Source of the DNA: Spirochaetes bacterium GWB1_60_80
Lineage (GTDB): Bacteria > Spirochaetota > Spirochaetia > Treponematales > UBA12059
Direction of reading: 5' to 3'
NCBI GenBank assembly: GCA_001829185.1
Contig: MIAR01000010.1
Location: 1-57,942 of the forward strand
DNA: 57,942 nt
The position numbers and the translations under genes were made by a program. The notes under the pieces were generated by a model. The model was not told the origin of the DNA, ran no database searches, and worked only from the letters and a program-made list of their open reading frames with translations. Below are positions 6,457 to 33,930 of the stretch, in pieces; within the stretch, counting starts at the first letter, position 1; each line of letters begins with the position of its first letter.

Positions 6457-6969
6457 TTATTCTCTTATAATATCGATTATCTGGGCGACTAGGCTATCAA
6501 CGGAGTTTTCCGCGTTCAGGCGGCGGCGGGCGCAAGCCGTGTAGAGCGGCTGCCGCGCCGTGTACAGCCCGGCTGGATTGTCGGCAAGCAAGGGGCGGGT
6601 GGCGTCTCCCCTCATGCGGGCTTCGAGGACCGGCCAAGGCGCGTCCAGCCAGAAGACTAGCCGCCGTTGCCGCAAAGCGACGGCGCTACTCGGATTTTGG
6701 CAGGCGCCGCCGCCGGTGGCCACCACCCGACCGCCGGGTCCGTCAGCTAGGCTCCGGATCAGGGTCGCTTCGGCCGCGCGGAACTCCGCCTCCCGGCCGG
6801 CTGCAAACAGGCTGGCGATGGAACGGCCGAATTGCCCAGTCAAAACTGCGTCACAGTCGACGAAGTCCCAGCCCAGTCGCCGCGCCAGCATTCGCCCCAC
6901 CGTACTCTTGCCCGAGCCCATGAAGCCGATCAGGAAGAGCGGGCCGTCATCCGGGCTGGCGCCTGGCAT
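6457..6969 (-). CDS. aroK: Shikimate kinase
   Basis: A 170-residue P-loop kinase that phosphorylates shikimate at O-3 in chorismate synthesis. Walker A is GFMGSGKST (residues 15-23). The shikimate-binding DxD-like motif is VDCDAVL, the conserved glycine triplet is ATGGGA, and the lid Arg region is GDATRPLL. Length is normal for the family. Its ATG overlaps the stop of the upstream chemoreceptor (TAATG), so it is the last gene of a minus-strand operon with two chemoreceptors, an unusual pairing. Confidence 0.95.
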   Translation of the reverse strand: MPGASPDDGPLFLIGFMGSGKSTVGRMLARRLGWDFVDCDAVLTGQFGRSIASLFAAGREAEFRAAEATLIRSLADGPGGRVVATGGGACQNPSSAVALRQRRLVFWLDAPWPVLEARMRGDATRPLLADNPAGLYTARQPLYTACARRRLNAENSVDSLVAQIIDIIRE

Positions 6970-9119
6970 TAGCCGGCGGCCTGTCCGTCGGTCGAGTTGG
7001 CGGCCGGCCCGCCAATTTTCTCGGGTGGCGGTGCGTCAGTATCGGAGTACTGCGAAATCAGGCTGTGCAGTTTCTCGGCAATGTCGTTCAGCTGCTTGGA
7101 GGTTTCGCTAGTATAGTTGGCGGAGTCGACGAAGCTGTTAACGCCGCCAGAAATTTCCTTGAGAGCCTGCAGGATCTGCCGAAAGGCCTGGCTCTCTTCT
7201 TGGAGCGAGGTATTGATTTCCAACGTGGCCGCGGCCGAGGTCTCGGTGGATTCGACGATGCCGGAGAAGGACTCGCCCATGTTGGAGGCGATGTCCCAGC
7301 TCTGTTCCAGGGCCGAGTAACCGTCGCGGGCCACGTTGACCACTTTACCAGACGAGGCGATCAGGCTGTTTACCCGGGCGCGGATGTTTTTGACGCTGCT
7401 CATGGTGGAGTCGGCCAGCCGCTTGACCTCGTCGGCCACGATGCGGAAATTGCGGCCAGCGTCGCCGGCGGCCACCGCCTCCAGCGAGGCGTTAAAGGCG
7501 ATGATGCGGATCTGGGTAGCGATGCCCTCGATGAACTTCACGATCTCGGTGATGGAGCCGAGTTCGTCGTTGAAGCTGTTGATCATGTTGATCGATTCGG
7601 CGATGCGGGCAATGACCGCTTCCAGCTTCTTGAGCGCCGTACGGACGTTGGCCGCGCCGTCGGTGGCCCGGGCCGCGCTGTCGTCGCTGGCTTTGGCCAC
7701 CTGGCTGGACTGTCCGGAAATATGGGTCAGCAGTTCGCTGGCGTTTTCCATGGTGGCCACGATCTCGCGTACCGCCGCCGCCTGCTGGTTGCCGGTAACG
7801 CTGACCTCGCGCGCCGAGACGGCGATCTCCTCGGCCGCTCTGGTCAGGATGCCGGACTCGATACCGAGGTGCTTGAATACCGTCTGCAGGATGGCGTTCT
7901 TATCGCTGATGGCCTCGGTCTGCAACAGCGTAGTCTTGAAAATCGCCTCTTGCCGGCTGGCTAGTTCGAAGAAGATGCAGAGCACCAGCCAGATGAAGCC
8001 GTAGGCCACGGTCCAGATGTAAGGAATCAGGTTTTTATTTTCATAGCCCATGTCGTAGAAGCTGGTCAGCAGTACCACGCTGAAGCCCAGCACCAGGTAG
8101 AGATTCTTCTTGAGGCCGGCCTTGAAGATACTGATGACAATCAGGACGACGCAGAAGATCAGGTGAGGCGTGATGGCGAAGTTCATGACCACATGGAACA
8201 TGTTGTTGGTGGCGTTGAAGTCCGGCTGCGCCAGCACCAGTATGCTCGCTAGCGCCGCCACCGCCGCCATGGCGAACTTGAGCGGGCGAAAACGCCGCAG
8301 CAGGTCGGTCGCTTCCATCACGTAAAACGACATTACGGCCATGCCCCCGAAGAAGCCGATGCGGCTGAGCTTGGTGAGCAAGGTGTCGGACAGGCTGAGG
8401 TGATTGAGGGCGATGTTGAAGTTGGCCATCATGAAGCCGCCGCAAAATAGCGCGAACCACAGGAACTGTAGGTTCTTGCCTTGGCCAATGGCATACATGA
8501 AAAGAAAGTAGATCAGCAAGAGGAAACTGACGGTCATGATGCCAGTGGACAGCTGAGTCATGAAAAAGTTACGCCAAAAGACGTAGGCGGCGGCTGGCTG
8601 GGCGTCGCTGATGGCCAGGACCATCAAGGGCGTCCGCTCGCCTGATATCCAGGCTTCCACTTCGATAACGTTGCGCCTCTGCAGCAAGGCCGGATCGATG
8701 GCGCTCAGGCTGCTGGCGTAGCGGCGGGTGCGGTTGCGGTCTTCGGCATAGCCGTAGTGGCTCAGGGTCTGGCCGTTGAGGCTCAGGCGGTAGGGATAGT
8801 AATTGGGGCCGACCACCAGGGTGGGCTGCCTAAGGCTGCCGTCTTGCGGCAGGCTGAACTCGATCCGGAAACGATAGCTGACGATGTGGCCGGCCGGGGA
8901 GGGGGGCAGCTGCCCGCCATCGTAGGGTTGGAAGCCCCGGCCGTCGCCGCTGTCCAGCTCAAGCCGCTCGATGGCCATGCGGTCGATGGCGGCGATGTCG
9001 GTGGAACAGCTGGCCAGGAGGATGCCGGCCAGCATCAGCAGCGTCAGTCTGGCTAGGAGCGTCCAGCCGGGCGCCGGAGCAGAAGTCGTCGGTCGATTTT
9101 TTTGTTTATTGTTTTTCAC
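6969..9119 (-). CDS. Lipoprotein-type 7TM methyl-accepting chemotaxis protein
   Basis: A 716-residue chemoreceptor. It begins with a lipoprotein signal (lipobox LLASC). An exported beta-rich domain of about 150 residues with jelly-roll/7TMR-DISM character follows, then seven hydrophobic helices at about residues 180-390. A long cytoplasmic MCP coiled coil completes it. The signalling tip is degenerate (GIATQIRIIAFNASLEAVAAG) but alignable with the MCP consensus, followed by VADEVKRLAD. There is no C-terminal CheR-binding pentapeptide. The start is a GTG at 9119 overlapping the stop of the preceding receptor (GTGA). Ligand is unknown; by family the outer domain may bind carbohydrate or a surface cue. 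Confidence 0.9.
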   Translation of the reverse strand: MKNNKQKNRPTTSAPAPGWTLLARLTLLMLAGILLASCSTDIAAIDRMAIERLELDSGDGRGFQPYDGGQLPPSPAGHIVSYRFRIEFSLPQDGSLRQPTLVVGPNYYPYRLSLNGQTLSHYGYAEDRNRTRRYASSLSAIDPALLQRRNVIEVEAWISGERTPLMVLAISDAQPAAAYVFWRNFFMTQLSTGIMTVSFLLLIYFLFMYAIGQGKNLQFLWFALFCGGFMMANFNIALNHLSLSDTLLTKLSRIGFFGGMAVMSFYVMEATDLLRRFRPLKFAMAAVAALASILVLAQPDFNATNNMFHVVMNFAITPHLIFCVVLIVISIFKAGLKKNLYLVLGFSVVLLTSFYDMGYENKNLIPYIWTVAYGFIWLVLCIFFELASRQEAIFKTTLLQTEAISDKNAILQTVFKHLGIESGILTRAAEEIAVSAREVSVTGNQQAAAVREIVATMENASELLTHISGQSSQVAKASDDSAARATDGAANVRTALKKLEAVIARIAESINMINSFNDELGSITEIVKFIEGIATQIRIIAFNASLEAVAAGDAGRNFRIVADEVKRLADSTMSSVKNIRARVNSLIASSGKVVNVARDGYSALEQSWDIASNMGESFSGIVESTETSAAATLEINTSLQEESQAFRQILQALKEISGGVNSFVDSANYTSETSKQLNDIAEKLHSLISQYSDTDAPPPEKIGGPAANSTDGQAAG

Positions 9120-10888
9120 GCCAGTTCCTTCCGGGTGGCGCCGGCTTTGTCGTTGGCAAAGCGGCCCAGGACGCCCTGCAGTTCCTCGACCAAGCGCTGC
9201 AGCTTGCCGGTCTCGTTGCCCGAGTCGCGGGTGCTGGCCATGATCTGCTCGGCGCCTTCCGAGATCTGCTTGAGGGTGGCGAATATCTGGTCGAAGGCTT
9301 GGGTCTGCTCGATCAGGATGCCGCTGATGTCGCGGGCGCTGCCGGCGGTGCTTTCGGCCGAGCTGCGCACCTGCATGAAAATCTGGTTGAGGTCGCGTGA
9401 CAGGTTCATGCCTTCGTCGATTTTGGCGGTGCCTTCCTCCGAGGTGGCTTGCAGCCGTTCTGAACTCTGCTGGATCTGGGAGACGCGTCCCTTGATGCCA
9501 GCCAGCGACTCGACCGTGCCCTTGGCCAGGCGGCGAATTTCCTCGGCCACGATGCGGAAGCTGGCGCCGGCCGCGCCGGCTGAGGAGGCCTCCAGCTCGG
9601 CGTTGAAGGCGATGATGCGTGTCTGGTTTGCGATGCTGTTGATAATTTCGATGATCTCGCCGATGGAGGCGATCTCCTCAGTCAGGTCGTTGATCTCGCT
9701 CAGGGTCTGCTGGTTGGCCGCCCGAATCTCGGACATTTTCTGGATGGTGTCCTGGACTTTGCCGAAACCCTCATCGACCGAATTCTGGCTTTCGGCGGCA
9801 TGGCTGGCCAGGGCGTGCGACTGCTCCTGTATCTGGCGGCTGATTTGGCTGGAGTCCTGCATGGTGCTGACAATCTCCTTGACGGCCGAGGCCTGCTGGG
9901 TGGTGGCGGCCACGGTCTGGCGGTTCTGCGAGGAGAAGCCCATCACCGCGCCGGCCAAGCCTTCGGCGGTGGCGCCTAGCTGGTCGAGCACCAACCGGAA
10001 CAGGTCGAAGGCTTGATTGATCTGGGCGGCCGTCAGGCTGTTGTCGTCGCGCAGGTCGGTCGGGATGTGCTTGGCGGTGTCGCCGCGCTCCACCATGTCG
10101 CGCAGAGCCTGCCGGATGACCTGGAGGCGCTGCTTGCTGAAGTAGCGGGTGTAGATGAGGATGGCCGGGATGGTGACCAGGTTGAAGGCTAGCGCCAGTA
10201 GGATACGGGCGGTGAAGAAGCGGAGGTCGGCGTGGCCCTGGCGGATAACGAGGGTCAGCAGCATAATGCCGCCGGAGGTGAGCAGGCTGGGCAAGGCCAG
10301 AGGGATGATGCTGACCAACCAGCGCAGTTGGCGGCTGCTAGTCCGGCCGGTATCCTCGGTCGCAGCCTTGAGGTGGCCATCGGCCACCAATTGCCTGGCT
10401 AGCCCGGTGGTGGCGGCGTGCAGGTAGTAGTAGATGACCAGGCCGGTCAGGAAGCTGGCGTACATGGCGTAAATCCAGACGGCCAACAAGTGGATGCCGC
10501 TGTCGAAGTAAGTGCTGACCAGGAGAATGCCCGCTCCGGCGCACAACAGCATGCGGACGAAGACCAGCCCGGCCTGCAACAGGGGTAGGCCCGTGATGGC
10601 GCGGTACAAGGCGCCGGCCAATCCCTCGTCGCCCGGCTTGTCCTGCCAGCGGCGGATATGCCCGGCCAGTCGGTAACCGATGAGTCCGTTGAGCGGCAGG
10701 GCCAGGAAAATCTGGTTGACGACTATCACGATGGCCAGGCGGGACAGGAAAAGCCCCAGCGGCACGGTGCCGAAATCGATCAGGGAGCCGCCATAGATGG
10801 TAGCCAGTGGCGCGCCGATCAGGTTGGCGAACAGCTCGGTCATGTAGAAACGGCCGGTCAAGCTGCCGGCCATTCTGGGATTTTTCAT
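9116..10888 (-). CDS. Polytopic methyl-accepting chemotaxis protein
   Basis: A 590-residue chemoreceptor with about six hydrophobic helices in the first 270 residues and no periplasmic sensor domain of note. It then has a short HAMP-like linker and an MCP signalling domain. The tip is NSIANQTRIIAFNAELEASSAG, followed by VAEEIRRLAK. With so little outside the membrane, it may sense membrane or energy state rather than a soluble ligand (inference). The ATG at 10888 (MKNPRM) has GAGGT upstream; longer in-frame extensions run into the divergent promoter region and are rejected. It is the first gene of the minus-strand MCP-MCP-aroK operon and divergent from the third receptor. Confidence 0.9.
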   Translation of the reverse strand: MKNPRMAGSLTGRFYMTELFANLIGAPLATIYGGSLIDFGTVPLGLFLSRLAIVIVVNQIFLALPLNGLIGYRLAGHIRRWQDKPGDEGLAGALYRAITGLPLLQAGLVFVRMLLCAGAGILLVSTYFDSGIHLLAVWIYAMYASFLTGLVIYYYLHAATTGLARQLVADGHLKAATEDTGRTSSRQLRWLVSIIPLALPSLLTSGGIMLLTLVIRQGHADLRFFTARILLALAFNLVTIPAILIYTRYFSKQRLQVIRQALRDMVERGDTAKHIPTDLRDDNSLTAAQINQAFDLFRLVLDQLGATAEGLAGAVMGFSSQNRQTVAATTQQASAVKEIVSTMQDSSQISRQIQEQSHALASHAAESQNSVDEGFGKVQDTIQKMSEIRAANQQTLSEINDLTEEIASIGEIIEIINSIANQTRIIAFNAELEASSAGAAGASFRIVAEEIRRLAKGTVESLAGIKGRVSQIQQSSERLQATSEEGTAKIDEGMNLSRDLNQIFMQVRSSAESTAGSARDISGILIEQTQAFDQIFATLKQISEGAEQIMASTRDSGNETGKLQRLVEELQGVLGRFANDKAGATRKELA

Positions 10889-11014: not shown

Positions 11015-11043
11015 GTGACAGCCGCCCAAGTATATTGTACAAT
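11015..11043 (+). promoter_or_regulatory. Sigma70-type promoter of the chemosensory operon
   Basis: GTGACA at 11015-11020 and TACAAT at 11038-11043 each match the sigma70 consensus at 5 of 6 positions, with an ideal 17-base spacer. The predicted start near 11050 gives a very short leader carrying GGGAGG before the ATG at 11063. No other strong promoter was seen before the SppA-like gene, so this probably drives the whole 11-23 kb cluster. Confidence 0.65.
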
Positions 11044-11062
11044 GCTGGCAGCGGGAGGAAAA

Positions 11063-12829
11063 ATGCAGCAACCTGATTTTACCCAGTTGAAAAAAAAGGT
11101 GGTCGTCAAGATTGCCATCTCATCCTTCGTCATCCAGTTTCTGGCGCTGTACTCCAGCGAAATCTTTAACGGGTTGTACAATGTGCAGCTGAATGCCCTG
11201 GGTCTTAGCCTGGTGGAGCGCTTGCCCCATTTCTTCAAGCCGACCATTATGGGAGTCTTTCTGGCGGCCTACCTGTTTCAGCTGACCGTGATGTTTGTCA
11301 CCCTGCGGCCGATGTTTCAGTACCTGCAAACCGGCGAACGTTACGGCCAGGCCCGGGTGGCGGCCATCAAGCTGCCTTGGCGGCTGATGCTTATCCAGTC
11401 GGGTTCCTGGATTCTCGGCGTCACGGCCTATTATATACTGATGCAGTGGCAACCGGAGAGCGGCTTGCCGTACCCCATCAGCCTGTCGCTCAAGCTGGCC
11501 GTCGGCTTTGTCGGTACCATGTACAATTGTATCGTGGCCAATATCCACCTCCTGCCCATCAAGCGCGCCATGCGCATCGTCGACATTCGCCCTGGCGAGT
11601 ATGACCGGTTTACGCGGAACAAGAACCTGCTGGTGGTCTTCGCCTCCGCCTTGCTGATCGGCACGCACTTCATTTATTTCGGCTGGTTTGTCATTAGTTC
11701 GGCTGGCGCGAGCCTGACCATGCTGCCGGGGCTTATCGCCTGGATCGCCTACTTCATGCTGGTCTCACTGGGGCTGATGTTTATATCACGCTACGAGTAT
11801 CACCAGCAGTTGGCCTTCCTCAAACAGCATATCAGCCGCCTGCTGGACGCCTCGGTCAATACCCGCGAGGATAAGGTGCAGCTGCTGTACTTTGACGAGG
11901 TTGGCGAGTTTGCCGCGCTGTTCAATCGCTTTATGGATAAATTCCACGGTCTTTTGACCGGCATGACTGGCTCGGCGCTGCTGCTGTCCAACTCGGTGCA
12001 AGACCTGTCCACCACTACCAAAGAAGTTACTTCCACCTCCAATATGCAGGCCGCCGCCGTCAAGGAAGTGGTCTCCACGATGGAGGATTCCAACCAGATT
12101 ACCCAATCCATCGGCCGCACCATCACCGAGGTGACGCGCATCGCCATCAAGACCAAGGAGCATGTCGAGGATGGCACTGGTCTGGTGCAGGACACCAGCC
12201 AGAAAATGTCCGAGATCCGCAAGAAGAATACCGACACCATTTCCGGCATCCGTCTCCTGACCGACAAGATCCGGGCCATCTGGGATATCGTCGACATCAT
12301 CAACACCATCGTGGAACAGACTAGGATCATCGCCTTCAACGCCGCGCTAGAGGCTTCCACGGCTGGCGAGGCGGGCCGGAACTTCCAGATCGTGGCCGGC
12401 GAGATTAAGCGGCTGGCCGATTCCACCAGCCAGTCGACGGCCGAGATACAAGCCCGCATCACCGAGATCCAGAAGGCCGCCAACAGCCTGATCATCGTCT
12501 CGGAGGAAGGCACCGAGCGCATTCGCCAGGGGCACGAATTATCGGAGCAGTTGCACGCCGTCTTCTCCAGTATATTGGACTCGGCCGACATCTCGGCCAG
12601 TTCTTCGGAGAACATCGAGTTCTCGATCCGCCAGCAAGCCAGCGCCTTCGAGCAGATACTTGTTACCATGAAGGAAATATCACGCGGTATCGACAATCTG
12701 GTGCTTACCCAACAGCAGACCGCCCAGACCGCCGAGGCGCTGGCCGGCATGGCCGTCTCGCTCAAGGGGCAGGCCGCCCAGTTCGCGGTCGGCGCAGGAG
12801 AGGCGGAGGCCACGCATGAAAAGCACTGA
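11063..12829 (+). CDS. Polytopic methyl-accepting chemotaxis protein, first gene of che operon
   Basis: A 588-residue receptor. Six hydrophobic helices lie in residues about 15-240, followed by an MCP coiled coil with tip NTIVEQTRIIAFNAALEASTAG and VAGEIKRLAD. As in the divergent receptor, extramembrane loops are short. The two proteins have the same architecture and similar signalling domains, suggesting an old duplication. The ATG at 11063 follows GGGAGGAAAA; the longer in-frame extension lies upstream of the promoter and is rejected. The 3' end overlaps cheW by 14 bases, so the two are probably translationally coupled and this receptor is the dedicated input to the operon. Confidence 0.9.
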   Translation: MQQPDFTQLKKKVVVKIAISSFVIQFLALYSSEIFNGLYNVQLNALGLSLVERLPHFFKPTIMGVFLAAYLFQLTVMFVTLRPMFQYLQTGERYGQARVAAIKLPWRLMLIQSGSWILGVTAYYILMQWQPESGLPYPISLSLKLAVGFVGTMYNCIVANIHLLPIKRAMRIVDIRPGEYDRFTRNKNLLVVFASALLIGTHFIYFGWFVISSAGASLTMLPGLIAWIAYFMLVSLGLMFISRYEYHQQLAFLKQHISRLLDASVNTREDKVQLLYFDEVGEFAALFNRFMDKFHGLLTGMTGSALLLSNSVQDLSTTTKEVTSTSNMQAAAVKEVVSTMEDSNQITQSIGRTITEVTRIAIKTKEHVEDGTGLVQDTSQKMSEIRKKNTDTISGIRLLTDKIRAIWDIVDIINTIVEQTRIIAFNAALEASTAGEAGRNFQIVAGEIKRLADSTSQSTAEIQARITEIQKAANSLIIVSEEGTERIRQGHELSEQLHAVFSSILDSADISASSSENIEFSIRQQASAFEQILVTMKEISRGIDNLVLTQQQTAQTAEALAGMAVSLKGQAAQFAVGAGEAEATHEKH

Positions 12830-13313
12830 AATCATCGATGCCCTGGAGGCTGTAGACGATGACGGCGATCTCGGCCAGACGCAGGCGGCGGCGACTAGCC
12901 GGCTGTTCGTGTTCTCGGTAGGAGAACTGCTGTTTGCCTTGCCGCCGGAAGTGATCCGGGAAATTGTGGCCGGCCTGGAGGTCTACCCGCTGCCGGCTTG
13001 CCCGCCCTATGTGCCGGGTCTCATCAACAGCCACGGCGAGCCGCACACTGTCTTCGACCTGCGCGTGCTTTTCGAGAACGAGCGCCAGGCCGTCGATAAA
13101 TTCCTGGTGCTCAAACTCGACGATGATAGCGTCGCCTTTGGCTGTAGCGACGTCAACGAGATAGTCGAGGTCAAGCTTTCGGAGATATCCACCTTCGCCG
13201 ATACCGAGGCGGAAGGACGCTTTTGCTCGGCCCTGTTTCAGTTGGACGGCCGGCAGGTGATGATCCTGTCGGTTAGCCATGTTCTGGCGCAGCTGGAGCA
13301 TGACCTTGGCTGA
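12816..13313 (+). CDS. cheW: Chemotaxis coupling protein CheW
   Basis: A 165-residue CheW-domain adaptor linking receptors to CheA. Residues about 28-160 carry the two-lobed beta-barrel pattern: LFVFSVGELLFALPPEVIREI, then PYVPGLINSHGEPHTVFDLRVLF, then a short C-terminal lobe. The first 25 residues are a polar extension. The start lies 14 bases inside the receptor gene, and the 3' end overlaps the next gene by 14 bases, giving tight coupling on both sides. Confidence 0.92.
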   Translation: MKSTEIIDALEAVDDDGDLGQTQAAATSRLFVFSVGELLFALPPEVIREIVAGLEVYPLPACPPYVPGLINSHGEPHTVFDLRVLFENERQAVDKFLVLKLDDDSVAFGCSDVNEIVEVKLSEISTFADTEAEGRFCSALFQLDGRQVMILSVSHVLAQLEHDLG

Positions 13314-13875
13314 GAAGGTTGAAGTATTCAGCTTCGCATACCGCGATTTTGAGGTGCTGATCAACGCCGCTGATTACTTCGCGCTGGTGCCCGGCGCGGA
13401 ATGCAGCCTGGATGACGGGCGCAGCTTGGCTGACGCGGCGGAGACTGGCTTGCCGGCGCTGGACTGGCTGACGGCGAAGGGCCAACGCTACCAGGCTTGC
13501 CTTTTGGAGCCACTGGCAGCCAGACTGGCGGCACCAACGGCCAGACTGGCTGCGCCAACAGCCGAGCGGTCGGATCCCTCAGGCGCCCAGCCTGACGCCA
13601 CTGCCAATGGCAATGGCGGTGGCGGTGAGGCAATAATAACCTGCGCTTTCTTGATGCGCCTGGAGGGGGGGCGATCGTTAGCCGTCGTCGCCACGCGCGG
13701 TTTTGAGCTCAAGGAATATGATTTGGCGGATTTTCGGCTGGTTCCCCGATCGCTGCGCGCGCGGTTGGGGACACTCGGGCTGCTCTGCCTGCGATTTGAG
13801 ACGGACGGACGCCTGCAGTTGATGCTGTATCCGCCGTCTTCGCGGTTTTGCCCAGCGGGCGGGGAGCTGAAATGA
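13300..13875 (+). CDS. Unknown protein between cheW and cheB, possibly CheW-like
   Basis: A 191-residue protein I do not recognise by family. Residues about 5-30 are strand-rich (VEVFSFAYRDFEVLINAAD). Residues about 75-110 are an Ala/Pro/Gly-rich linker containing an imperfect repeat. The rest is strand-rich again (RSLAVVATRGFELKEYD ... GLLCLRFETDGRLQLML), resembling the second lobe of CheW. It lies where some chemosensory operons encode a second CheW. It overlaps cheW by 14 bases, and its stop overlaps the cheB start. A divergent CheW-like adaptor is my inference. The ATG at 13300 is chosen; an in-frame ATG at 13279 would lengthen the overlap. Confidence 0.7.
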   Translation: MTLAEKVEVFSFAYRDFEVLINAADYFALVPGAECSLDDGRSLADAAETGLPALDWLTAKGQRYQACLLEPLAARLAAPTARLAAPTAERSDPSGAQPDATANGNGGGGEAIITCAFLMRLEGGRSLAVVATRGFELKEYDLADFRLVPRSLRARLGTLGLLCLRFETDGRLQLMLYPPSSRFCPAGGELK

Positions 13876-15053
13876 TGAAGGTCTTCATCGCGGATGATTC
13901 CATCCTGATCAGGAACGTGGTTAAGGAAATTCTAGGCACTGATGGCGGCATCGCGGTAATCGGCGAGGCCGCCAATGGCGAGTTGGCCGTATCCAAGGTA
14001 TTGGAATTAAAGCCCGATATCGTCATTATGGACATGGATATGCCGGTAATGAACGGCCTGGAGGCCACCAGCCGCATTACCCGCCGTTCCAACATTCCAG
14101 TGCTGCTGTTTACCAATAACACTGATCCGGAGCTGCCTTTCCGGGCACTAGAGCGCGGCGCGGCCGAATTCATGCGCAAACCCACCTTTAACGATCTGAA
14201 CCGCCCCGAGTATGTCCGCATGTTTACCGAAACCCTACGAACCATTGCCGGCCGCTACCGGGGAAGAATATTTTACTCACCAGAAAAGGCGGGCGACGAC
14301 TACGATGCCGCGGCCGGAGCATCGGCCTTCCATTCGTTGCCGGAAGCGGCTGCCGCGCCAAGTGCAATGCCTGGGATGGTCCCGGTTGCGGTTCAGTCGC
14401 CAGCCGCAGTCCAATCGGCCAGCGCCGGCCTGGCATCTTCCCTGGCCGAGGCCGGGCGCCAGGCTTGCCTGGCTGATTCCGAGGCGCGGCCCCGGATAAT
14501 CGCGCTGGGAGCCTCAACTGGCGGCCCGCAGGCTGTGGCTCGCTTCCTTAGCCTGCTGGGCGGGCCGGCAGAGCTGCCTCTGGTTATCGTGCAGCATATC
14601 GAGACCGGCTTTGACAAGGGCTACGCCGATTGGCTGTCTCAGGAGAGCGGCCTGACGGTGCGCCTGGCCCGCGCCGGCGAGCGGCCAGTGGCCGGCATAG
14701 TCTACGTAGCCCCGACCGATTTTCATTTGGTGTTCACGGCAGGCGTCTTCGGTTTGGACGATGGCGAAAAATTACTTAACCAAAAGCCGGCGGTTGATGC
14801 CCTGTTTAAGTCGGCGGCCGAACAGTATGGCCGGCACGTACTGGCGGTGCTGCTCACCGGCATGGGCACAGACGGAGCCAACGGCTGCCTGGCCGTCAAG
14901 GCGGCTGGCGGCGTCACCTTGGTACAGGACGAAGCTAGCAGTCTCATTTACGGCATGCCCCGGGCGGCCGTCGAGCGCGGCGCCGCCTGCCATGTCTTGC
15001 CGCTGGATGCCATCGGCCATTATGTGGCCTGTCTCATGGAGCGTTTCCGATGA
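13872..15053 (+). CDS. cheB: Chemotaxis response regulator methylesterase CheB
   Basis: A 393-residue protein-glutamate methylesterase that demethylates receptors. The receiver domain covers residues 1-120 with phospho-Asp at about 54 (VIMDMDMPVMNG). An Ala/Pro-rich linker of about 80 residues follows. The catalytic domain has the Ser in GASTGGP (about residue 215), the His in VQHIE and the Asp in LTGMGTDGANG, giving a complete triad. The preferred ATG at 13872 is six bases after GGGGAG and overlaps the previous stop (ATGATGA). Its own stop overlaps cheR (ATGA). Confidence 0.95.
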   Translation: MMKVFIADDSILIRNVVKEILGTDGGIAVIGEAANGELAVSKVLELKPDIVIMDMDMPVMNGLEATSRITRRSNIPVLLFTNNTDPELPFRALERGAAEFMRKPTFNDLNRPEYVRMFTETLRTIAGRYRGRIFYSPEKAGDDYDAAAGASAFHSLPEAAAAPSAMPGMVPVAVQSPAAVQSASAGLASSLAEAGRQACLADSEARPRIIALGASTGGPQAVARFLSLLGGPAELPLVIVQHIETGFDKGYADWLSQESGLTVRLARAGERPVAGIVYVAPTDFHLVFTAGVFGLDDGEKLLNQKPAVDALFKSAAEQYGRHVLAVLLTGMGTDGANGCLAVKAAGGVTLVQDEASSLIYGMPRAAVERGAACHVLPLDAIGHYVACLMERFR

Positions 15054-16525
15054 CCACGCTGGCGGCCGACGAAAGCCAGGATAGCCTGGAAGATTTAGTG
15101 CTCAGCATCGAGCGGGAGACTGGCCTGTGTTTCCCCGAGGTTCATCACGACACCATTCTCAAGGCGGCGCGTTTGCATTGCCGGCAGCTGGGCTTGGCGC
15201 CGGATTGCTACGCCAGCATCTTGCAGACCGACAGCGAGGAGAAAGCCCGCTTCCTCGACGATATCATGATAGGCGAGACTTATTTTTTCCGCGACGAGAA
15301 GCAGTTCGCAGCCTTGGCCAGCTTTGTGCTGCCGCAGTTGTTCCGCGAAGTTTTACGGCTGCGGATCTGGTCCGTAACCTGTGCCACCGGCGAAGAAGCC
15401 CTGTCGCTGCTGGCCTTGCTGGAGGAAGTCAAGGCGACGCTGGGCAGCGCCGGCAGCTGGACCCTTCTGGCCAGCGACATTAATCGCAATGCCCTGGAGG
15501 CGCTGCGGCGCGGCGTCTATTCGCTGTCATCGTTCCGAACCGATGGCCGACGCTGGCACGATTTACTGCGACGCCTGGGCGAACGACAAGAAGGCGTCTG
15601 GGTACTTCGTCCAGGCGTGCTGGACCAAGTGACCATTCAGCATGTCAACGTCTTATCCGGCCAACTGCCGGCGGCCGCCTCCATGGACCTGATCTTCTTC
15701 CGCAATACGCTGGTATACATGAAGCAGGAGCAAAAGGACTGCATTGTCGGCCGGCTGGTTGGCACGTTGCGGCCGGGCGGTTTTCTGTTTCTGGCCTCGC
15801 CCGAGGTGCCTACGGTGCGCCATGCCGAACTGGAAGTGTTGGAACGCGACGGCGCTTTCTTTTACCGCAAACGAACGGCCGCCGCTCCGGCCGTCGCCAA
15901 GCCTGCAACCAGCCGTGTCGGTCCCAGGCAGCCGCCGGCTGGAAGCGCGCCCGGGCCAGGCACTGTCGCAGCCAGCGTTCAGCCCGCGAGCCAGTCAGCG
16001 TCCCGCCCGGCGCGCCTCCGCGTACCCGGTACCCGGCAGCTGAGTCAGGCTGAGCTGCGTAGCGCGTTGCAGCTGGCGTCGGAGGGCCAACCGGCCGCGC
16101 CGGCCGGCAGCGAGCCTGTCCAAGCCGTTGCCGCCCTGGTAGTCCGGATCGTCGCCGCTATCCAGGAGAACCGTTTCGGCTACGCCCTGCAGCAGCTCGG
16201 GGAATTGGAGAAGGCAGCGGGTGATAATTTCCTCAACCACTACCTGATCGGCCTGGTATTCAAGCACCAGGGGCGATTGACCGAGGCTCTGGACCGCTGG
16301 GAGCGTGCCAGGCTGTACGAGTCCGGCTTCTGGCCGGCGACCTTCCAGGCCGGCGCTACCCTGGCGGCCAGCGGCAATGACCGAGGCGCCGACTTGCTCC
16401 GCGAGTGCCTGGCGGCCATCGATGGCCGCCAGCATGGCAGCCGCTATCGTATCTTGCTCGATGGGTTCGATATTTCATATTACCGGCACATGGCGCTGCG
16501 CATGCTGGAGAAGTTCGCGCTTTGA
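15050..16525 (+). CDS. cheR: Chemotaxis methyltransferase CheR with C-terminal TPR-like domain
   Basis: A 491-residue SAM-dependent methyltransferase. The N-terminal alpha domain (about 15-95) ends in MIGETYFFRDEKQF. The SAM-binding motif is SVTCATGEEALSLLALL, with Thr in place of the usual Ser. A FFRNTLVYM motif follows. After an Ala/Pro-rich linker at about 275-345, residues about 360-490 are helical and TPR-like (LNHYLIGLVFKHQGRLTEALDRWERA). Such tails mediate protein contacts in CheR of alternative chemosensory systems such as FrzF. It is coupled to cheB and followed by cheA 25 bases later. Confidence 0.93.
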   Translation: MTTLAADESQDSLEDLVLSIERETGLCFPEVHHDTILKAARLHCRQLGLAPDCYASILQTDSEEKARFLDDIMIGETYFFRDEKQFAALASFVLPQLFREVLRLRIWSVTCATGEEALSLLALLEEVKATLGSAGSWTLLASDINRNALEALRRGVYSLSSFRTDGRRWHDLLRRLGERQEGVWVLRPGVLDQVTIQHVNVLSGQLPAAASMDLIFFRNTLVYMKQEQKDCIVGRLVGTLRPGGFLFLASPEVPTVRHAELEVLERDGAFFYRKRTAAAPAVAKPATSRVGPRQPPAGSAPGPGTVAASVQPASQSASRPARLRVPGTRQLSQAELRSALQLASEGQPAAPAGSEPVQAVAALVVRIVAAIQENRFGYALQQLGELEKAAGDNFLNHYLIGLVFKHQGRLTEALDRWERARLYESGFWPATFQAGATLAASGNDRGADLLRECLAAIDGRQHGSRYRILLDGFDISYYRHMALRMLEKFAL

Positions 16526-16550
16526 CCTGCTCCGAAAGGATGGATGTATA

Positions 16551-18794
16551 ATGGCTGTTTCCAAAGAAAAATTCATGGCCTTGTTCCTCGACGAGTTTCG
16601 CGAAAATTTGCTGGCAGCGGAGAACCAGATCATCGTCCTCAAGAATGACCAGGGCAACAGCGACGCGCTGGCCTTGCTACTGCGTACCTTGCACACTATT
16701 AAAGGCGCGGCGCGGCTGTTGCAGTTCGGCCGCATCGAGCGGCTGGTACACGGGCTGGAAAATGTCTTCAAAGGCGTCCGCGAGGGACGCTATGCCATCG
16801 ACGCGCGGCTGGCTCGTTTTTTCTTCATCGGCCTGGATCATCTGCGTTTTGCCGCCGCCGCAATCCAGGAAGGTCGCGGCGAGGAGCTACCCGGCCTGGA
16901 AGGCCTGCTGGAGGCCTGTGAAAAGATTAGCGCCAACGAGGCTTTCGATGTCATGGCGCTGGAGCCGTTGCCGGCCGTTACCCCGGCCGTAGTCGCCGCG
17001 GCCGGCCCCCTTGCGGCTGCGCAGGCGGCGGTCGCGCCACTGGCTGGTCCGGCCGCTTCGGCTGTCTTCTCGGCCGGGAGCGGCTTGTCAAACCAGGCGA
17101 TCGACGCCAGCATCAGGGTTGACGCCGCCACCATCGACCGATCTATCAGCCTAGTCAATACCCTGACCGTGCGCCAGTTGCGCCTGCGCTCCGGCGTTAG
17201 CCAACTGGAGAGCCTCGAGCGGCATTTGGATGAAGCCGTTCGCCAGGGTGAGGATCTGCGTGCACTGCGCAAGAAAATCAGCGGCGTCTCCCGTCAGTTG
17301 CGCCAGTACAGGAATCTTTACTCTGACCAGCTCTTTGAGATTGAGCATGGCACGCACGAATTACGCGACGCGGTCATCAGCATGCGGATGCTGCCGCTAT
17401 CCACCGTGCTTGAGCACCTGCCGCGCATGGTCGAGGAGGCCGCCGAGGCCTTGGGGAAGGACGTGCGCATCGCCATTCGCGGCGACTCGGTGCACCTGGA
17501 CCGGACCGTGCTCTCCAAGTTATCCGACCCGCTTATTCACTTGGTGCGCAACGCTATCGACCATGGTATCGAAAGCCCCGAGGAGCGGTCCCGCGCCGGC
17601 AAGCCGGCTTGGGGGCTGGTCGAGATCGATTGCCGAACCGAAGGTAACCGTATCTCGGTAACGATTCGCGACGATGGCCGCGGCCTGGACTACGAGTCCA
17701 TCCGTCAGAAGGCCATCAGCCTGTGGCCAGAGAACGCCCCGGATATCAAGCTGATGGGAAATGACGAACTGGTACGCTTCCTGTTTAGGGCTGGATTCTC
17801 CACCCGCTCTAGCAGTACCACCCTATCCGGACGGGGGATCGGTTTGGATATCGTCAAGACGAACATCGAGGCTGCCAAAGGCCAGATCCAGCTGGACTCC
17901 GCGGCTGGCGTGGGCTGTACCTTCACCTTGTTGCTGCCGGTTTCGGCTTCCACCATGGACGGCATGTTCGTGCTGGCGGCCGGTAGTAAATATTATATAC
18001 CTTCATCGGCCATAACCCGCACCCTGCTGCTTGATTCGACTGATGTATTCCATATAAGGCAGAAGGAAATGTTCGCGCTCGATGGCCTAAACATCGCCAT
18101 CAGTGACCTGTCCGTCTGCTTGCAGCTGGACCGTCGGCCGGAGAAGGCCGGTAAGGTCGCCGTGCTGCTGGTGCGGGGCGCGAGCGATCTGGTCGGGCTG
18201 CGCGTCGACAAGATATTGGGCTACGATTCGCTTGTCTACCAGTCGCTGCCTGCCAGTTTGCGCCGCAATACCCTCATCCAGGGCGTTGTTTTCGATTCGG
18301 CCTTTGACATTATTCCCATTCTCAACATGTGGGCGGTGCTGGACAGGCTGCGCTCGGTACGCCTCATGGACACGCACAAGCGCTTCTCATCGGCCAGCCA
18401 GCTGGATCGGCCGAGCATCCTGGTAGTCGACGATTCGATCAGCACGCGAGAGATCGAGGTGTCAATGCTGTCGCTGGAAGGCTACGATGTCATAGGGGCG
18501 GTAGACGGCGTCGATGCGCTGGAGAAAATTCACGCCATGCGTTTCGACCTTATCGTCTCTGACCTTAATATGCCGCGCATGGACGGGATGAAGCTCCTTG
18601 AGAACATCCGCAACGACGAGGCTACCAAGGCTACGCCGGTAATCCTGGTTACCACGGTTGACGAGGCGGCCACCAAGGCCAGGGCCGAGGCGCTGGGGGT
18701 GAGTAAGTACATCCTCAAATCAAGCTTCGAGCAGGACAACCTGATCAGCTCGGTCAGGCAGCTCCTGGCCGCCCTCAAGGAACCACGCTTATGA
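16551..18794 (+). CDS. cheA: Hybrid chemotaxis kinase CheA with C-terminal receiver
   Basis: A 747-residue histidine kinase. The Hpt domain has phospho-His about 48 (TLHTIKGAARLL). An Ala-rich linker covers about 140-180, with no obvious CheY-binding P2 domain. A dimerisation/P3 region follows. The ATPase domain has N-box LSDPLIHLVRNAIDHGIESPEER, G1 RDDGRGLD and G2 LSGRGIGLDIV. A CheW-like P5 domain precedes a receiver with phospho-Asp about 671 (IVSDLNMPRMDG). The ATG at 16551 follows GAAAGGA; upstream extension runs inside cheR. The receiver fusion is the layout of FrzE and of other non-flagellar systems. The stop overlaps the cyclase start (ATGA). Confidence 0.95.
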   Translation: MAVSKEKFMALFLDEFRENLLAAENQIIVLKNDQGNSDALALLLRTLHTIKGAARLLQFGRIERLVHGLENVFKGVREGRYAIDARLARFFFIGLDHLRFAAAAIQEGRGEELPGLEGLLEACEKISANEAFDVMALEPLPAVTPAVVAAAGPLAAAQAAVAPLAGPAASAVFSAGSGLSNQAIDASIRVDAATIDRSISLVNTLTVRQLRLRSGVSQLESLERHLDEAVRQGEDLRALRKKISGVSRQLRQYRNLYSDQLFEIEHGTHELRDAVISMRMLPLSTVLEHLPRMVEEAAEALGKDVRIAIRGDSVHLDRTVLSKLSDPLIHLVRNAIDHGIESPEERSRAGKPAWGLVEIDCRTEGNRISVTIRDDGRGLDYESIRQKAISLWPENAPDIKLMGNDELVRFLFRAGFSTRSSSTTLSGRGIGLDIVKTNIEAAKGQIQLDSAAGVGCTFTLLLPVSASTMDGMFVLAAGSKYYIPSSAITRTLLLDSTDVFHIRQKEMFALDGLNIAISDLSVCLQLDRRPEKAGKVAVLLVRGASDLVGLRVDKILGYDSLVYQSLPASLRRNTLIQGVVFDSAFDIIPILNMWAVLDRLRSVRLMDTHKRFSSASQLDRPSILVVDDSISTREIEVSMLSLEGYDVIGAVDGVDALEKIHAMRFDLIVSDLNMPRMDGMKLLENIRNDEATKATPVILVTTVDEAATKARAEALGVSKYILKSSFEQDNLISSVRQLLAALKEPRL

Positions 18795-20659
18795 AAAAAA
18801 TATTACTGGTAGATGATTCTGATTTGGTGGCCGAGGTGATCGGCGAAGCGCTGCGTGACGGTGGGTTTGAGGTGGTGCGGGCTCGCGATGGCTACGAGGC
18901 TATCGAGCAGTGCTACCGGGTGATACCGGATCTGGTGATAATGGATATCGACATGCCGCTGCTGAAAGGCTACCAGGCTAGTCGGCTGCTTAAAAGCCGG
19001 CGTGGGGTTAAGGATATCCCGATTATCATGCATACCGGCAACTCGGAAGACAAGGACCGCTTCTGGTCGTACAATTCCGGCGCTTGCGCCTTCGTGGTCA
19101 AGGATTACGGCAACATCGGCCCGTTGGTGGACAAGGTGAATTCGTTCATCGATTACGAGCCGCTGGACACGGCGCTGATAGTGGAAGACGCCAAGTCCAT
19201 CAACCGCGAGTTCATCGCAGAAAGCCTGTCGAACATCCTCGATAAGGAACTCTATCACTCCACCATCATCAACCAACTAAACGACGCGGCCCGTAGCATC
19301 TCATCACTGTCCGGTACGGTGCTGCGGGTGCTCGAGCTCCTGGACCTGGCTTGCGAGCGTGATATCGCCGCCGTCATCCTGAAGATTGGCCGCGAGGCGG
19401 TGCCTTATGTCTTTCCCCAGGCTACCGTCAACAAGGCTATGGCCGACGATTTCCTGTCGGTGGCCTTCGAGGATTTCTATAAACAGTTTCAGCTGAGTAG
19501 CGTCAAGCCGGCCGAGCCGCAATTCTTCAATCTCGAAGAACGCGCTGACTGGAATAAACTGCGCCTCGACAAGGTTCGCCTTTGTTCCTACCACGCTGCG
19601 CCGATTTTTGGATCGGCCGGAGAATGCGTCGGGACTATCCATTTGGGCCATGTCAAGAATAATTACTTCGCCGAATCGATTCTCGAGAATATCGGCGCTT
19701 TCGTGCGCGACGCCGGCGTCATCATCCATAATGCCATGCTGTTTAACCAGTTGAGCAGCATGGAGCGCGACATCAGGCATATTTTTTCCAAGTTCGTGCC
19801 GCAGGAGATCATCAACGATTTGATCGCCCGCCGCACTCACACTTCGATGCTGGCCGGAGAGAAGCGTGAACTGGCCATCGTGTTCAGCGACATTCGTTCC
19901 TTTACCACCCTGTCCGAGAACAATCCGCCGGAAGTCGTCGTTTCCTTCCTGAACCGCTATCTGGAAACGATGTGCGACATCATTACCGACCATGGCGGCA
20001 TGGTGGATAAATTCATCGGTGACGCCATTTTGGCCGTTTTTGGCGCACCCAAAAGCTGGCCTGACAACGCTCGCCGGGCCGTCCAGACCGCCATGGCCAT
20101 GTCGCGGGCGCTGGCCGTCTTCGACACCACTGGTATCCAGCTGCCGCCGGAAGGGCTGGAGATCGGCATCGGCGTCCACCTAGGCGACGCCATTGTCGGC
20201 ACCATCGGCTCGTCGGCCAAGTTCGACTATACGGTCATCGGCGACACCGTAAACCTGGCCTCGCGCCTAGAAGGCTTATCCAAGCAATATTTATGTCGCA
20301 TCATCGTCTCCGACCGGATAGTCAAGGCCATCGACGCCCATAAGGATGTCCTCGAAGGCGTTCGCTTCCGGGAAATCGAAGAAGTCATCGTTAAAGGCAA
20401 GGAGGAGCCGACCCTCATCTACCAGCTGGAAGACGAAGGCCTGCCCAGTCTGAGCGACGCCGAATACGACTTGTACAAGAAAGCCCAGGCGATGTATCGT
20501 CTGCGTAATTGGCAAACCGCCATCGATTATTTTTCAAAAGTGCTGGCCGCCAAGCCACACGACCCGGTCTGCATCATGTTCCGGCAGCGTTGCCAGGATT
20601 TCCTGCTAACCCCGCCGCCGGCCGACTGGGACTTCGTGCAGCGTTACCTCACCAAGTAA
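18791..20659 (+). CDS. Receiver-GAF-like-adenylate cyclase, output of the che operon
   Basis: A 622-residue class III nucleotidyl cyclase. The receiver (1-125) has phospho-Asp about 52 (LVIMDIDMP). A short segment reading ALIVEDAKSINREF follows and resembles the start of a second receiver. A GAF-like region covers about 150-320. The cyclase domain (about 355-530) has metal Asps in FSDIRSFTTLSE and FIGDAILAVFG, the adenine-specifying Lys in VDKFIGD, and FDYTVIGDTVNLASRLEG, so ATP is the likely substrate. A TPR-like tail ends the protein. Its start overlaps the cheA stop. With no cheY in the operon, this protein is the evident phosphotransfer target of CheA and the output would be cAMP (inference). 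Confidence 0.93.
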   Translation: MKKILLVDDSDLVAEVIGEALRDGGFEVVRARDGYEAIEQCYRVIPDLVIMDIDMPLLKGYQASRLLKSRRGVKDIPIIMHTGNSEDKDRFWSYNSGACAFVVKDYGNIGPLVDKVNSFIDYEPLDTALIVEDAKSINREFIAESLSNILDKELYHSTIINQLNDAARSISSLSGTVLRVLELLDLACERDIAAVILKIGREAVPYVFPQATVNKAMADDFLSVAFEDFYKQFQLSSVKPAEPQFFNLEERADWNKLRLDKVRLCSYHAAPIFGSAGECVGTIHLGHVKNNYFAESILENIGAFVRDAGVIIHNAMLFNQLSSMERDIRHIFSKFVPQEIINDLIARRTHTSMLAGEKRELAIVFSDIRSFTTLSENNPPEVVVSFLNRYLETMCDIITDHGGMVDKFIGDAILAVFGAPKSWPDNARRAVQTAMAMSRALAVFDTTGIQLPPEGLEIGIGVHLGDAIVGTIGSSAKFDYTVIGDTVNLASRLEGLSKQYLCRIIVSDRIVKAIDAHKDVLEGVRFREIEEVIVKGKEEPTLIYQLEDEGLPSLSDAEYDLYKKAQAMYRLRNWQTAIDYFSKVLAAKPHDPVCIMFRQRCQDFLLTPPPADWDFVQRYLTK

Positions 20660-20685
20660 GCGGCTGGCAGACGAAAGGAGCCTCT

Positions 20686-23103
20686 GTGTTCAAACGTATT
20701 ACCGCCTTGATTCTGACCATCGGCCTGGCGGCGGCTTTGGCCGCCCAGGACGCCGGCACCTCGCGGGCCGACGCTCGTGCCCTATGGGAGAATTCCGCCA
20801 ACCCCGCCAGCTGGGGTCTTTCCGATGCCTGGTACGCCAGCGGCGTCCGCATCAGCTGGCAGCTGCCGGCCGATATGGCCAGCTTGGACGCCCAGGATAT
20901 CGAGGTGATCCTGGCTATCCCGTTGCTGAATTACCACTTGCGCCGCTTGCCCGACGGCACTATGACGCACGACGTGACCAGCGTCGTGGCGGTTGGCGAT
21001 AGCTTGTCCATAGGCTATCGTACTTACTTTTCCAGTAGTGAGGAATTGTTTTCACGTATTGACTACGGCCTCTTGTGGCGGCCCAACTCGCTATTGTCCC
21101 TCGGCTTTACCGTGAGCGACCCCTTTGCCGACGACGCGGTCTTGGGGCTTGGCTTGGCGCTGCGCCCCCTGGCCGCCTTCTGGCCGGCCGGCGGCCATAA
21201 TCTGACCGTCAGCTCCGACGCAGTCTATTCCGGCGGCGCCTTCAGCATGGAATCGATTGGGGTGCGCTTGGGCTGGGATGACCGCCTGTCGCTGCGCTCC
21301 TGGTACTCCTTCCCCGGCAACAGCTTCGGCCTCAGCCTGGCCGTTACCGCCGGACTGGGCACCTTTGCGGTGGATATGCCCGAACTTAGCGCCCCGCCGT
21401 TGGCCTTGCGCGTCAGCAGCAGCGTCCAGCTGGTCGGGTCGCCGGCCGATGCTGGCGCTACCACTGGGTTCCCGCTGGTAGGCGTCGGCAATTGCCTGCT
21501 GGTCGACGGCCGCGACATTATCGCCCTGACGCCATCTCCCAGCTCCTCGTTCTTCCGGGCCGGGTCAGACTACAGCTTCGACGACCTGGTGCGCTCCATC
21601 TACCGGGCGGCCGAGGACAGGGCCATCGCGGCCTTGGTGCTGGTGGACCCACCGGCCTTCGACACGGCCCGCCTGCAGGAACTGGCCACGGCCATCGCCG
21701 CCTTCCAGGCCGCCGACAAACCAGTCTACGTCTACGCCGACAACCTGGAAACCGGTCAGTACAGCTATCTGGCCGCCGCGGCCGATTACCTAGTTCTCGA
21801 CCCCAACGGCAGCCTCGGCTTGACAGACGCCGCCTGGGGTAATTTTTACTTTCGGCAGCTGCTGGAGAATATCGGTATCAATTTTTATTCACTCAAGTCG
21901 CATGATACCAAGACGGCCGGCAACCCCTTCACCGAATATGGCGTCACCGCCGCCGAGCAGGCCATGCAACAGCGCTTGCTGAGTGGCCGCAGCCAACAGT
22001 ACTACTTGGCGCTGGACAACGCCCGGCCCGATCTGGCCGACGGCGCGGCTGCCCTGTTTGCCCGTGGGCCGTATCTGATTCCGGGGCGGGCGTTGGACGC
22101 CGGCCTGGTGGATGGTCTCCTGTACCGCGAGGAGTTCGACGACTGGCTCGAGGAGCGGCATCCGGGGCACAGCCTGCAAGGCGTCGCCGACTACCTTGAC
22201 CAGCCTGACTTGGCCTGGGGCGTTGATCCCTTCGCCCGGACCGTGGCCGTAGTACACCTGAGCGGCAACATCGTCGACCAGCCTGGCGTGGCCGGCGCTT
22301 CGATCGGATTTCAGGCCGCCGAGCTGTTGGCCAGCTTGCGCGAGGACGCTACCGTGGCCGGTATTATCCTGCGCGTCGACTCCGGCGGCGGCGCCGTCAT
22401 GGCTAGCGACCGCATTGCTCGCGAAGTGCGCCTGACCGTGGCCGCCGGCAAGCCGGTTTACGTCTCGATGGCCGACTACGCCGCTTCCGGCGGTTACTAT
22501 ATCGCCGCGCCGGCCACGCGCATCTGGGCCGAACCCGGCACCCTGACCGGGTCGATCGGCGTCTTGGGTCTGAGCTACTCGGCGACCGGCTTACTGGAAA
22601 AGCTTGGCGTCAATTTTGACAGTATCGAGCAGAGCGGCTCCAGCAATTTCGGCAACCCCTTCCTGCCAGTGGACGAAGGCGATCTGGCTGTTACCGCCGA
22701 GTGGATCGAGCACGTCTATGGGCGCTTCGTGGCCGTCGTGGCCGAGGGTCGCGGACTAGACCCGGCCCGGGTGGACGAACTGGGCCGCGGCCAAGTCTGG
22801 CTGGGTAGCGAGGCCTTGGAGAACGGCCTGGTGGACGAGTTGGGCGGCTTGGAGGCCGTGCGTCAGGCTATGCGTGACGAGCTGGGCGACCGGCTGAGCT
22901 TTGTTGATCTGCTGCCCGGCTCCCCTACGGACTTCAGCCTGTTAAATCTGTTCATGGTTGGCAACCGGCTGGACGCCATCTGGTCGCTGACCGGCCTGTC
23001 GCTGCCAGCCGACCTGAGCCGCGGCCTGCGCGTGCTGGGCGATCTGGAGGAGCTGGGTACCGGCTGCCTTTACCTGGCGCCCGAGTATCTGTGGCGCGAT
23101 TGA
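20686..23103 (+). CDS. sppA: Signal-peptide-peptidase-like S49 protease with barrel-like N-terminal domain
   Basis: An 805-residue exported protein. It has a signal peptide (about 1-20), then about 240 strand-rich residues with alternating polar/apolar pattern and many Gly/Tyr/Trp, resembling an outer-membrane beta-barrel. A duplicated S49 fold follows. The first S49 half carries the candidate catalytic Lys (SLKSHDTKTAGNPF). The second carries the Ser in DYAASGGYYIAAP, followed by GSIGVLG. This is the two-lobe 67K SppA arrangement plus an extra N-terminal domain. The GTG at 20686 follows AAAGGAG, 26 bases after the cyclase stop, so it is probably co-transcribed with the chemosensory genes. 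The missing membrane anchor suggests periplasmic or outer-membrane location. Confidence 0.85.
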   Translation: MFKRITALILTIGLAAALAAQDAGTSRADARALWENSANPASWGLSDAWYASGVRISWQLPADMASLDAQDIEVILAIPLLNYHLRRLPDGTMTHDVTSVVAVGDSLSIGYRTYFSSSEELFSRIDYGLLWRPNSLLSLGFTVSDPFADDAVLGLGLALRPLAAFWPAGGHNLTVSSDAVYSGGAFSMESIGVRLGWDDRLSLRSWYSFPGNSFGLSLAVTAGLGTFAVDMPELSAPPLALRVSSSVQLVGSPADAGATTGFPLVGVGNCLLVDGRDIIALTPSPSSSFFRAGSDYSFDDLVRSIYRAAEDRAIAALVLVDPPAFDTARLQELATAIAAFQAADKPVYVYADNLETGQYSYLAAAADYLVLDPNGSLGLTDAAWGNFYFRQLLENIGINFYSLKSHDTKTAGNPFTEYGVTAAEQAMQQRLLSGRSQQYYLALDNARPDLADGAAALFARGPYLIPGRALDAGLVDGLLYREEFDDWLEERHPGHSLQGVADYLDQPDLAWGVDPFARTVAVVHLSGNIVDQPGVAGASIGFQAAELLASLREDATVAGIILRVDSGGGAVMASDRIAREVRLTVAAGKPVYVSMADYAASGGYYIAAPATRIWAEPGTLTGSIGVLGLSYSATGLLEKLGVNFDSIEQSGSSNFGNPFLPVDEGDLAVTAEWIEHVYGRFVAVVAEGRGLDPARVDELGRGQVWLGSEALENGLVDELGGLEAVRQAMRDELGDRLSFVDLLPGSPTDFSLLNLFMVGNRLDAIWSLTGLSLPADLSRGLRVLGDLEELGTGCLYLAPEYLWRD

Positions 23104-31897: not shown

Positions 31898-31951
31898 CCG
31901 CCCGAGTGAAACGTTCATGCGGTCGGGGCGCTACGGTCGGAAAGGGAAAAA

Positions 31952-33535: not shown

Positions 33536-33536
33536 G

Positions 33537-33902
33537 ATGGGTAAAAAGGCATTGGTGATCGATGACAATAAAAACAACCTCATGCTCGAAAAGGACCTTT
33601 TGGAAGTGGCTGGCTTTGAGGTCTTCGAAGCCGAAAACGCATCAAGCGGAATAGTGATTGCCAGGATGGAAAAACCGGACGTTATTATTATGGACGTACG
33701 GCTTCCTGATATGCGCGGCTCGGAGGCCGCAAGGATATTGCGTCAGGACAGGGAGACAAGCGATATCCCTATTATTTTCGTGACCGCTTCCGTATTTCCG
33801 GAGGGCAAGGAAGAACTGAAGGACATTGCCAACTCGGGTTTTATTGGTAAGCCGATTAATACACGTACATTCGCGAAGGAAGTCAGGGAGTACATCGAGT
33901 GA
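33537..33902 (+). CDS. Single-domain response regulator
   Basis: A 121-residue receiver with acidic pair DD at 9-10, phospho-Asp 53 (IIMDVRLPD), Thr in FVTASVF and switch Lys in FIGKPI. It has no output domain, as in CheY, DivK or Spo0F-type relays. It starts one base after the stop of the double-PAS kinase and is probably its direct phosphotransfer target. DivK-like relay is an inference from size and context. Confidence 0.93.
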   Translation: MGKKALVIDDNKNNLMLEKDLLEVAGFEVFEAENASSGIVIARMEKPDVIIMDVRLPDMRGSEAARILRQDRETSDIPIIFVTASVFPEGKEELKDIANSGFIGKPINTRTFAKEVREYIE

Positions 33903-33930
33903 TCAACGAGAACCGACTTCGGGGGAAGGG

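Follow-up and report, generated by a model that had tools for sequence, protein, structure and literature searches.

Chemosensory systems of the alternative cellular function (ACF) class are marked by output enzymes that are fused to receivers. In the Frz system of Myxococcus, a hybrid CheA with its own receiver (CheA-REC) works with two CheW-like proteins and a CheR with a TPR extension, and the outputs are receiver proteins that act on motility; to our knowledge the Frz operon contains no cyclase. In the Wsp system, which we compared through the Wsp-type clusters on pAZKH and pMLb, the output WspR is a receiver-GGDEF protein. Pseudomonas aeruginosa uses the Pil-Chp chemosensory system to raise cAMP, in which PilJ activates PilG and PilG in turn activates CyaB (PMC12632253). 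A 2012 survey lists ‘mononucleotidyl cyclase’ among the receiver-fused outputs in cheR-TPR clusters (PMC3447774), and by that line the general idea of a receiver-cyclase in such clusters is already on record. It is a single list item there; the main text names no spirochaete, and in the parts consulted neither a conserved operon nor a second CheW nor decay of a receiver is described. No paper on the present operon was found by title and abstract among open-licence PMC papers, the survey line being the nearest.

The locus lies in a window of 57,942 nucleotides, the whole stretch of DNA that was analysed, which is a 57.9 kb contig of the 3.6 Mb genome of Spirochaetes bacterium GWB1_60_80; the closest relatives of this genome are Spirochaetes metagenome genomes. 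The che cluster spans 11063-20659, entirely on the + strand and with mostly overlapping gene ends, and every gene that a sequence-only reading of this DNA had listed is present. The first gene (11063..12829, +) encodes MCP1, a protein of 588 aa with several N-terminal transmembrane helices and an MCP signalling domain, and is followed by the first CheW coupling protein (12816..13313, +), assigned by Pfam CheW (E 2.9e-19) and aligned with its orthologs. A second, divergent CheW-like protein (13300..13875, +) precedes CheB (13875..15053, +), a receiver plus methylesterase with intact active residues. Domain search identified the next gene as the CheR methyltransferase (15050..16525, +); the earlier label ‘CheR-TPR’ was right as to CheR, and the C-terminal extension is TPR-like only below threshold (TPR_2, E 0.02). 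CheA (16551..18794, +) was resolved by domain search into Hpt, kinase core, CheW-like P5 and C-terminal receiver, with His48 and the ATP-site and receiver residues intact and no match to a P2 domain. The last gene, identified by its domains and residues, encodes a receiver-GAF-class III adenylate cyclase (18791..20659, +) that starts in the cheA stop codon, as had been claimed: the stop and the cyclase ATG share one ATGA, and the two reading frames overlap. In agreement with the sequence-only reading, no CheY, CheC, CheX or CheZ was seen within the cluster, and CheY-like single receivers occur in other chemosensory clusters of the same genome. The cluster combines a CheA that has a C-terminal receiver and no P2 match with a multidomain response regulator, and it is free of flagellar and pilus genes, all features by which ACF systems are recognized.

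Two further receptor genes lie upstream on the opposite strand, both assigned from their domains or helices: MCP2 (9116..10888, -), which is divergent, and MCP3 (6969..9119, -), which has a periplasmic region and several transmembrane helices and whose start overlaps the MCP2 stop. Two relatives also carry a divergent MCP pair beside the cluster, and MCP2 is probably a further receptor of the system. Position 11015, which the sequence-only reading had given as its start, is not a gene start and opens instead a promoter-like hexamer pair (GTGACA-17-TACAAT, 11015..11043, +) just 5′ of MCP1, a consensus match of a kind that occurs at about chance density in this region. Terminator-like sites in the region were likewise at chance level only, and a tRNA was the sole match in an Rfam scan of the window. 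On the other side of the cluster, an SppA-like S49 peptidase (20686..23103) starts 26 bases past the cyclase stop, a spacing given correctly before; its membership of the system was rejected, as nothing similar follows the cyclase in the relatives checked. Elsewhere in the window, positions 30599-35271, in a stretch of lower G+C, encode a second receiver-cyclase (432 aa) and after it a PAS-PAS-HisKA kinase, a lone receiver and a receiver-PAS-GGDEF protein, which together make a two-component cluster whose outputs include a cyclase as well as GGDEF. An ice-binding-like protein is encoded at 35451-36665 (Pfam E 3.2e-51).

The small protein between cheW and cheB had been called unknown, and the window copy itself gave no Pfam match. 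An ORF of 119-193 aa occupies the same place in 44 further readings of the cluster, a number that includes duplicate contigs and one reading (L063) visibly in the wrong frame. A profile built from 19 family members matched the operon CheW profile with probability 95.4 (E 1.8e-8), and Pfam CheW was matched by five of the 19, at best with 2.5e-7. In addition, the AF2 model of the protein (pLDDT 84) retrieved only CheW or CheA/CheW complexes in its first 18 matches in a PDB search, with nothing besides CheW/CheA below E 0.1; the CheA P5 domain is itself CheW-like. The candidate of a novel protein was therefore rejected on its predicted structure, which is a CheW fold, and the protein is, by profile and model, a second, divergent CheW-like protein.

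With this assignment the parts list equals that of Wsp, except that a cyclase replaces the GGDEF protein: both have an MCP, two CheW-like proteins, CheR, a hybrid CheA-REC, CheB and a receiver-cyclase, and neither has CheY. The differences are that the output here is a class III adenylate cyclase, that a GAF-like domain stands between receiver and enzyme, that the gene order is another and one CheW is very divergent, and that CheA falls in a separate clade. By these sequence comparisons Wsp is the best match in parts, and not in output, order or CheA kinship. The parallels drawn earlier with Frz and Chp are less close. Going by its general description alone, Frz shares the hybrid CheA-REC, the two CheW-like proteins and the CheR with a TPR extension, and differs in outputs that act on motility and in an operon without a cyclase. 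Pil-Chp shares the character of a chemosensory system raising cAMP, and the solved cyclase domains closest to the present one include that of CyaB; it differs in that PilG is a separate protein, whereas here a single protein encoded in the operon unites receiver and cyclase, and the cluster has no pilus genes beside it.

The cyclase consists of a receiver (residues 1-121), a GAF-like middle (about 140-335), a class IIIb catalytic domain (about 357-546) and a TPR-like C-terminus; no domain arrangement was drawn from the full-length AF2 model (pTM 0.44). The earlier statement that the receiver Asp and the active site are intact was borne out, since the receiver carries Asp52, Thr82 and Lys104 and the catalytic domain carries the metal residues D367 and D411, the substrate residues K407 and T481, and N488 and R492 (transition-state). 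In a motif comparison the Lys/Thr substrate pair (K407/T481) follows the class IIIb adenylate pattern, and P. aeruginosa CyaB is among the closest solved relatives of the domain. By residue pattern the output enzyme would be a class IIIb adenylate cyclase, and cAMP synthesis is predicted. In a first set of 73 cyclase sequences, in which a few contigs are counted twice, the phospho-Asp, the receiver Lys and the first metal Asp were each present in 73/73, and the remaining catalytic residues were kept wherever the sequence reaches them (truncated ones aside); CheA His48 and the receiver Asp and Lys of CheA were kept in 74/74. With 26 cNMP-binding stretches and 16 cyclase matches, the source genome clearly makes use of cyclic nucleotides.

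The sequence-only reading had proposed a search of spirochaete genomes for the cheA-cyclase overlap. A scan with the receiver-GAF half of the cyclase brought up about sixty loci that carry this cluster; most are from termite-gut-type Treponema or from other metagenome genomes of the Spirochaetota, and four are from Desulfobacteraceae. Because searching by the cyclase biases the count, a second, cyclase-independent search was run with a CheA profile over 393 genomes of the phylum. The results showed that the CheA side leads to an adjoining cyclase also at loci that the cyclase-receiver query had passed over. Twenty regions were read from genomes without a cyclase-receiver match. In 13 the cluster is the same but its receiver has diverged, L217 has a divergent form of the cluster in which there are two cyclases, and L207, from a genome that is 85% complete, has no cyclase. 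The other five hold CheAs that are more distant, with GGDEF (L214), a receiver protein whose output is unassigned (L215), REC-REC-cyclase (L216), REC-cyclase among Wsp-like neighbours (L218) and REC-kinase (L219) as their outputs. The cyclase lies directly 3′ of cheA in 84 of 86 distinct CheA loci, nearly all from Spirochaetota and a few from Desulfobacteraceae; this is a count of CheA sequences and not of independent events, many of the loci are metagenome-assembled, and most were first found via the cyclase receiver, so that this share of the total is biased. The remaining two are L207 and a locus interrupted by a contig end.

Within 61 complete clusters, counted before a few duplicate contigs were taken out, there was no CheY or other single receiver and hence no separate regulator of the PilG/PilH type; a lone small REC flagged in this census belongs to the window and sits 14 kb from the cluster. 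Divergence of the cyclase follows that of CheA (correlation of distances, r 0.90) about as tightly as does divergence of CheB, CheR and CheW (0.92-0.94). Since the pair is conserved at 84 of 86 loci and the complete clusters hold no CheY, the assignment of the cyclase as the array output in this CheA group, which had been proposed from the window alone, is strongly supported by gene neighbourhood.

Several variants were seen beside the counted loci. REC-GAF matches without a cyclase were left out of the count (L119, L121, L107, L112); in Brocadiaceae and Acidobacteriota che clusters (L119, L121) the receiver-GAF module is fused to GGDEF and in Treponema (L107, L112) to a histidine kinase-receiver, and it is a swappable input module. 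The cyclase-less CheA of L207 (G127) is followed at 5310-5930 by a gene resembling uracil phosphoribosyltransferase. In L217 (G080) the CheA Hpt His is aligned with Gln, other kinase motifs are altered and two cyclases follow, so that a kinase-dead array still paired with cyclases is possible. The system is also carried by G034, a genome in a single contig of 4,059,867 bases.

The feature that a specialist would least expect is the decay of the cyclase receiver in one branch. Its phosphorylation residues are kept in 65 loci and lost in 19, of which 18 come from a single other family within the same order; in the CheA tree, decayed receivers occupy one large clade and turn up again in L227. The conserved Lys is gone from all 19 receivers together with one or more acidic residues, the phospho-Asp being replaced by N, H, S, E, Y or K in 15, while four keep an Asp at the phosphosite and have lost the Lys and the intact acidic pair. 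The metal and Lys residues of the cyclase, the CheA His and the Asp and Lys of the CheA receiver are intact in 19/19. The CheB receiver has also decayed in several of these loci, and loss of its phospho-Asp with intact methylesterase residues was seen in L203, L205, L209, L212, L220 and L221. Because these 19 loci keep the gene pair with a decayed receiver, direct phosphotransfer to the cyclase cannot, as judged from these residues, be the general mechanism.

In the tree the CheAs of the group form one clade (SH-aLRT 99), from which three Wsp CheAs (a separate clade, SH-aLRT 100) and the other CheAs of the source genome are excluded; the tree is a quick one, with 19 weakly supported inner branches. 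Among 194 genomes of the order of the Desulfobacteraceae only four loci and one weaker, partial match were found, and their CheAs sit among spirochaete CheAs. This rarity and nesting suggest that the Desulfobacteraceae acquired the system by transfer. Two other, distant Spirochaetota CheA groups (L216, L218) have receiver-cyclase neighbours, and since these distant CheAs also adjoin receiver-cyclases, the cyclase output may have arisen more than once.

All evidence consists of sequence and predicted structure, and on it we consider it likely, with some confidence, that the cluster encodes a self-contained array with CheB/CheR adaptation and, as its dedicated output, a class IIIb adenylate cyclase, reached in the window lineage by phosphotransfer to Asp52. 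Membrane receptors, the two CheW-like couplers and CheA would form the array. When active, CheA would autophosphorylate on His48, and from there the phosphate would go to the receiver at the CheA C-terminus, to CheB and, for the window lineage, to the cyclase at Asp52. Activity of the cyclase dimer would then be set, in either direction, by the receiver-GAF unit, and the targets of cAMP would be among the genome's many cNMP-binding proteins. The earlier proposal that phosphotransfer drives the cyclase directly is thus retained as likely for the window lineage, because the phosphosite is kept there as in the other intact receivers, and given up as a universal rule. Against this main reading stand the decayed receivers, which indicate that the design can do without phosphate on the cyclase, the CheY-like receivers elsewhere in the genome, which could be phosphorylated in trans, and the one CheA of the clade (L207) without a cyclase, besides the bias in the locus count noted above.

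Since the decayed branch keeps the pair, receiver docking or control through the CheA receiver is a serious rival. The receiver-GAF unit might mainly dock the cyclase to CheA or its receiver, with the phosphorylated CheA receiver or the conformation of the array setting activity and the window phosphosite as a secondary input. The loci with decayed receivers retain the operon, the catalytic residues, the CheA His and the CheA receiver, and the latter is the sole receiver whose phosphosite is kept throughout these clusters, that of CheB decaying in several; however, a phosphosite kept in the other 65 loci, across several deep CheA lineages, is hard to explain if idle, and we regard such coupling without phosphotransfer as rather unlikely. 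A somewhat better prospect, although still tentative, is a distinct monophyletic cAMP-dedicated chemosensory class in which the array controls the cyclase by docking or via the CheA receiver, phosphate on the cyclase being dispensable and having disappeared from one branch while the system persisted. The cyclase might also be merely co-transcribed, answering another kinase or a GAF ligand while a CheY encoded elsewhere serves as the real output. Class IIIb cyclases can be ligand-regulated, and the single receivers in other clusters of the genome would be candidates for that CheY; but the cyclase adjoins cheA at 84 of 86 loci, in different families and even in a second phylum, it co-diverges with CheA, and CheY is lacking in all 61 complete clusters, which makes this improbable. 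Least credible of all is a strict Wsp system with a GGDEF domain recently swapped for a cyclase: the parts list is that of Wsp-type clusters, but CheB here stands ahead of CheR and CheA, the CheA clade is apart from the three Wsp CheAs compared, and the clade spans deep lineages, so any swap would be old.

Together, gene content and CheA descent indicate that the system is a conserved, monophyletic variant of the alternative-function chemosensory systems with a predicted cAMP output. The host bacteria probably turn receptor signals directly into cAMP, rather than into flagellar steering. If this is true, an array with adaptation and gain would be linked to cAMP in one operon, as it is to c-di-GMP in Wsp. 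The intact and decayed receivers, joined to the same enzyme and the same kind of CheA, would form a natural comparison that makes signalling from an array to an output other than CheY directly testable.
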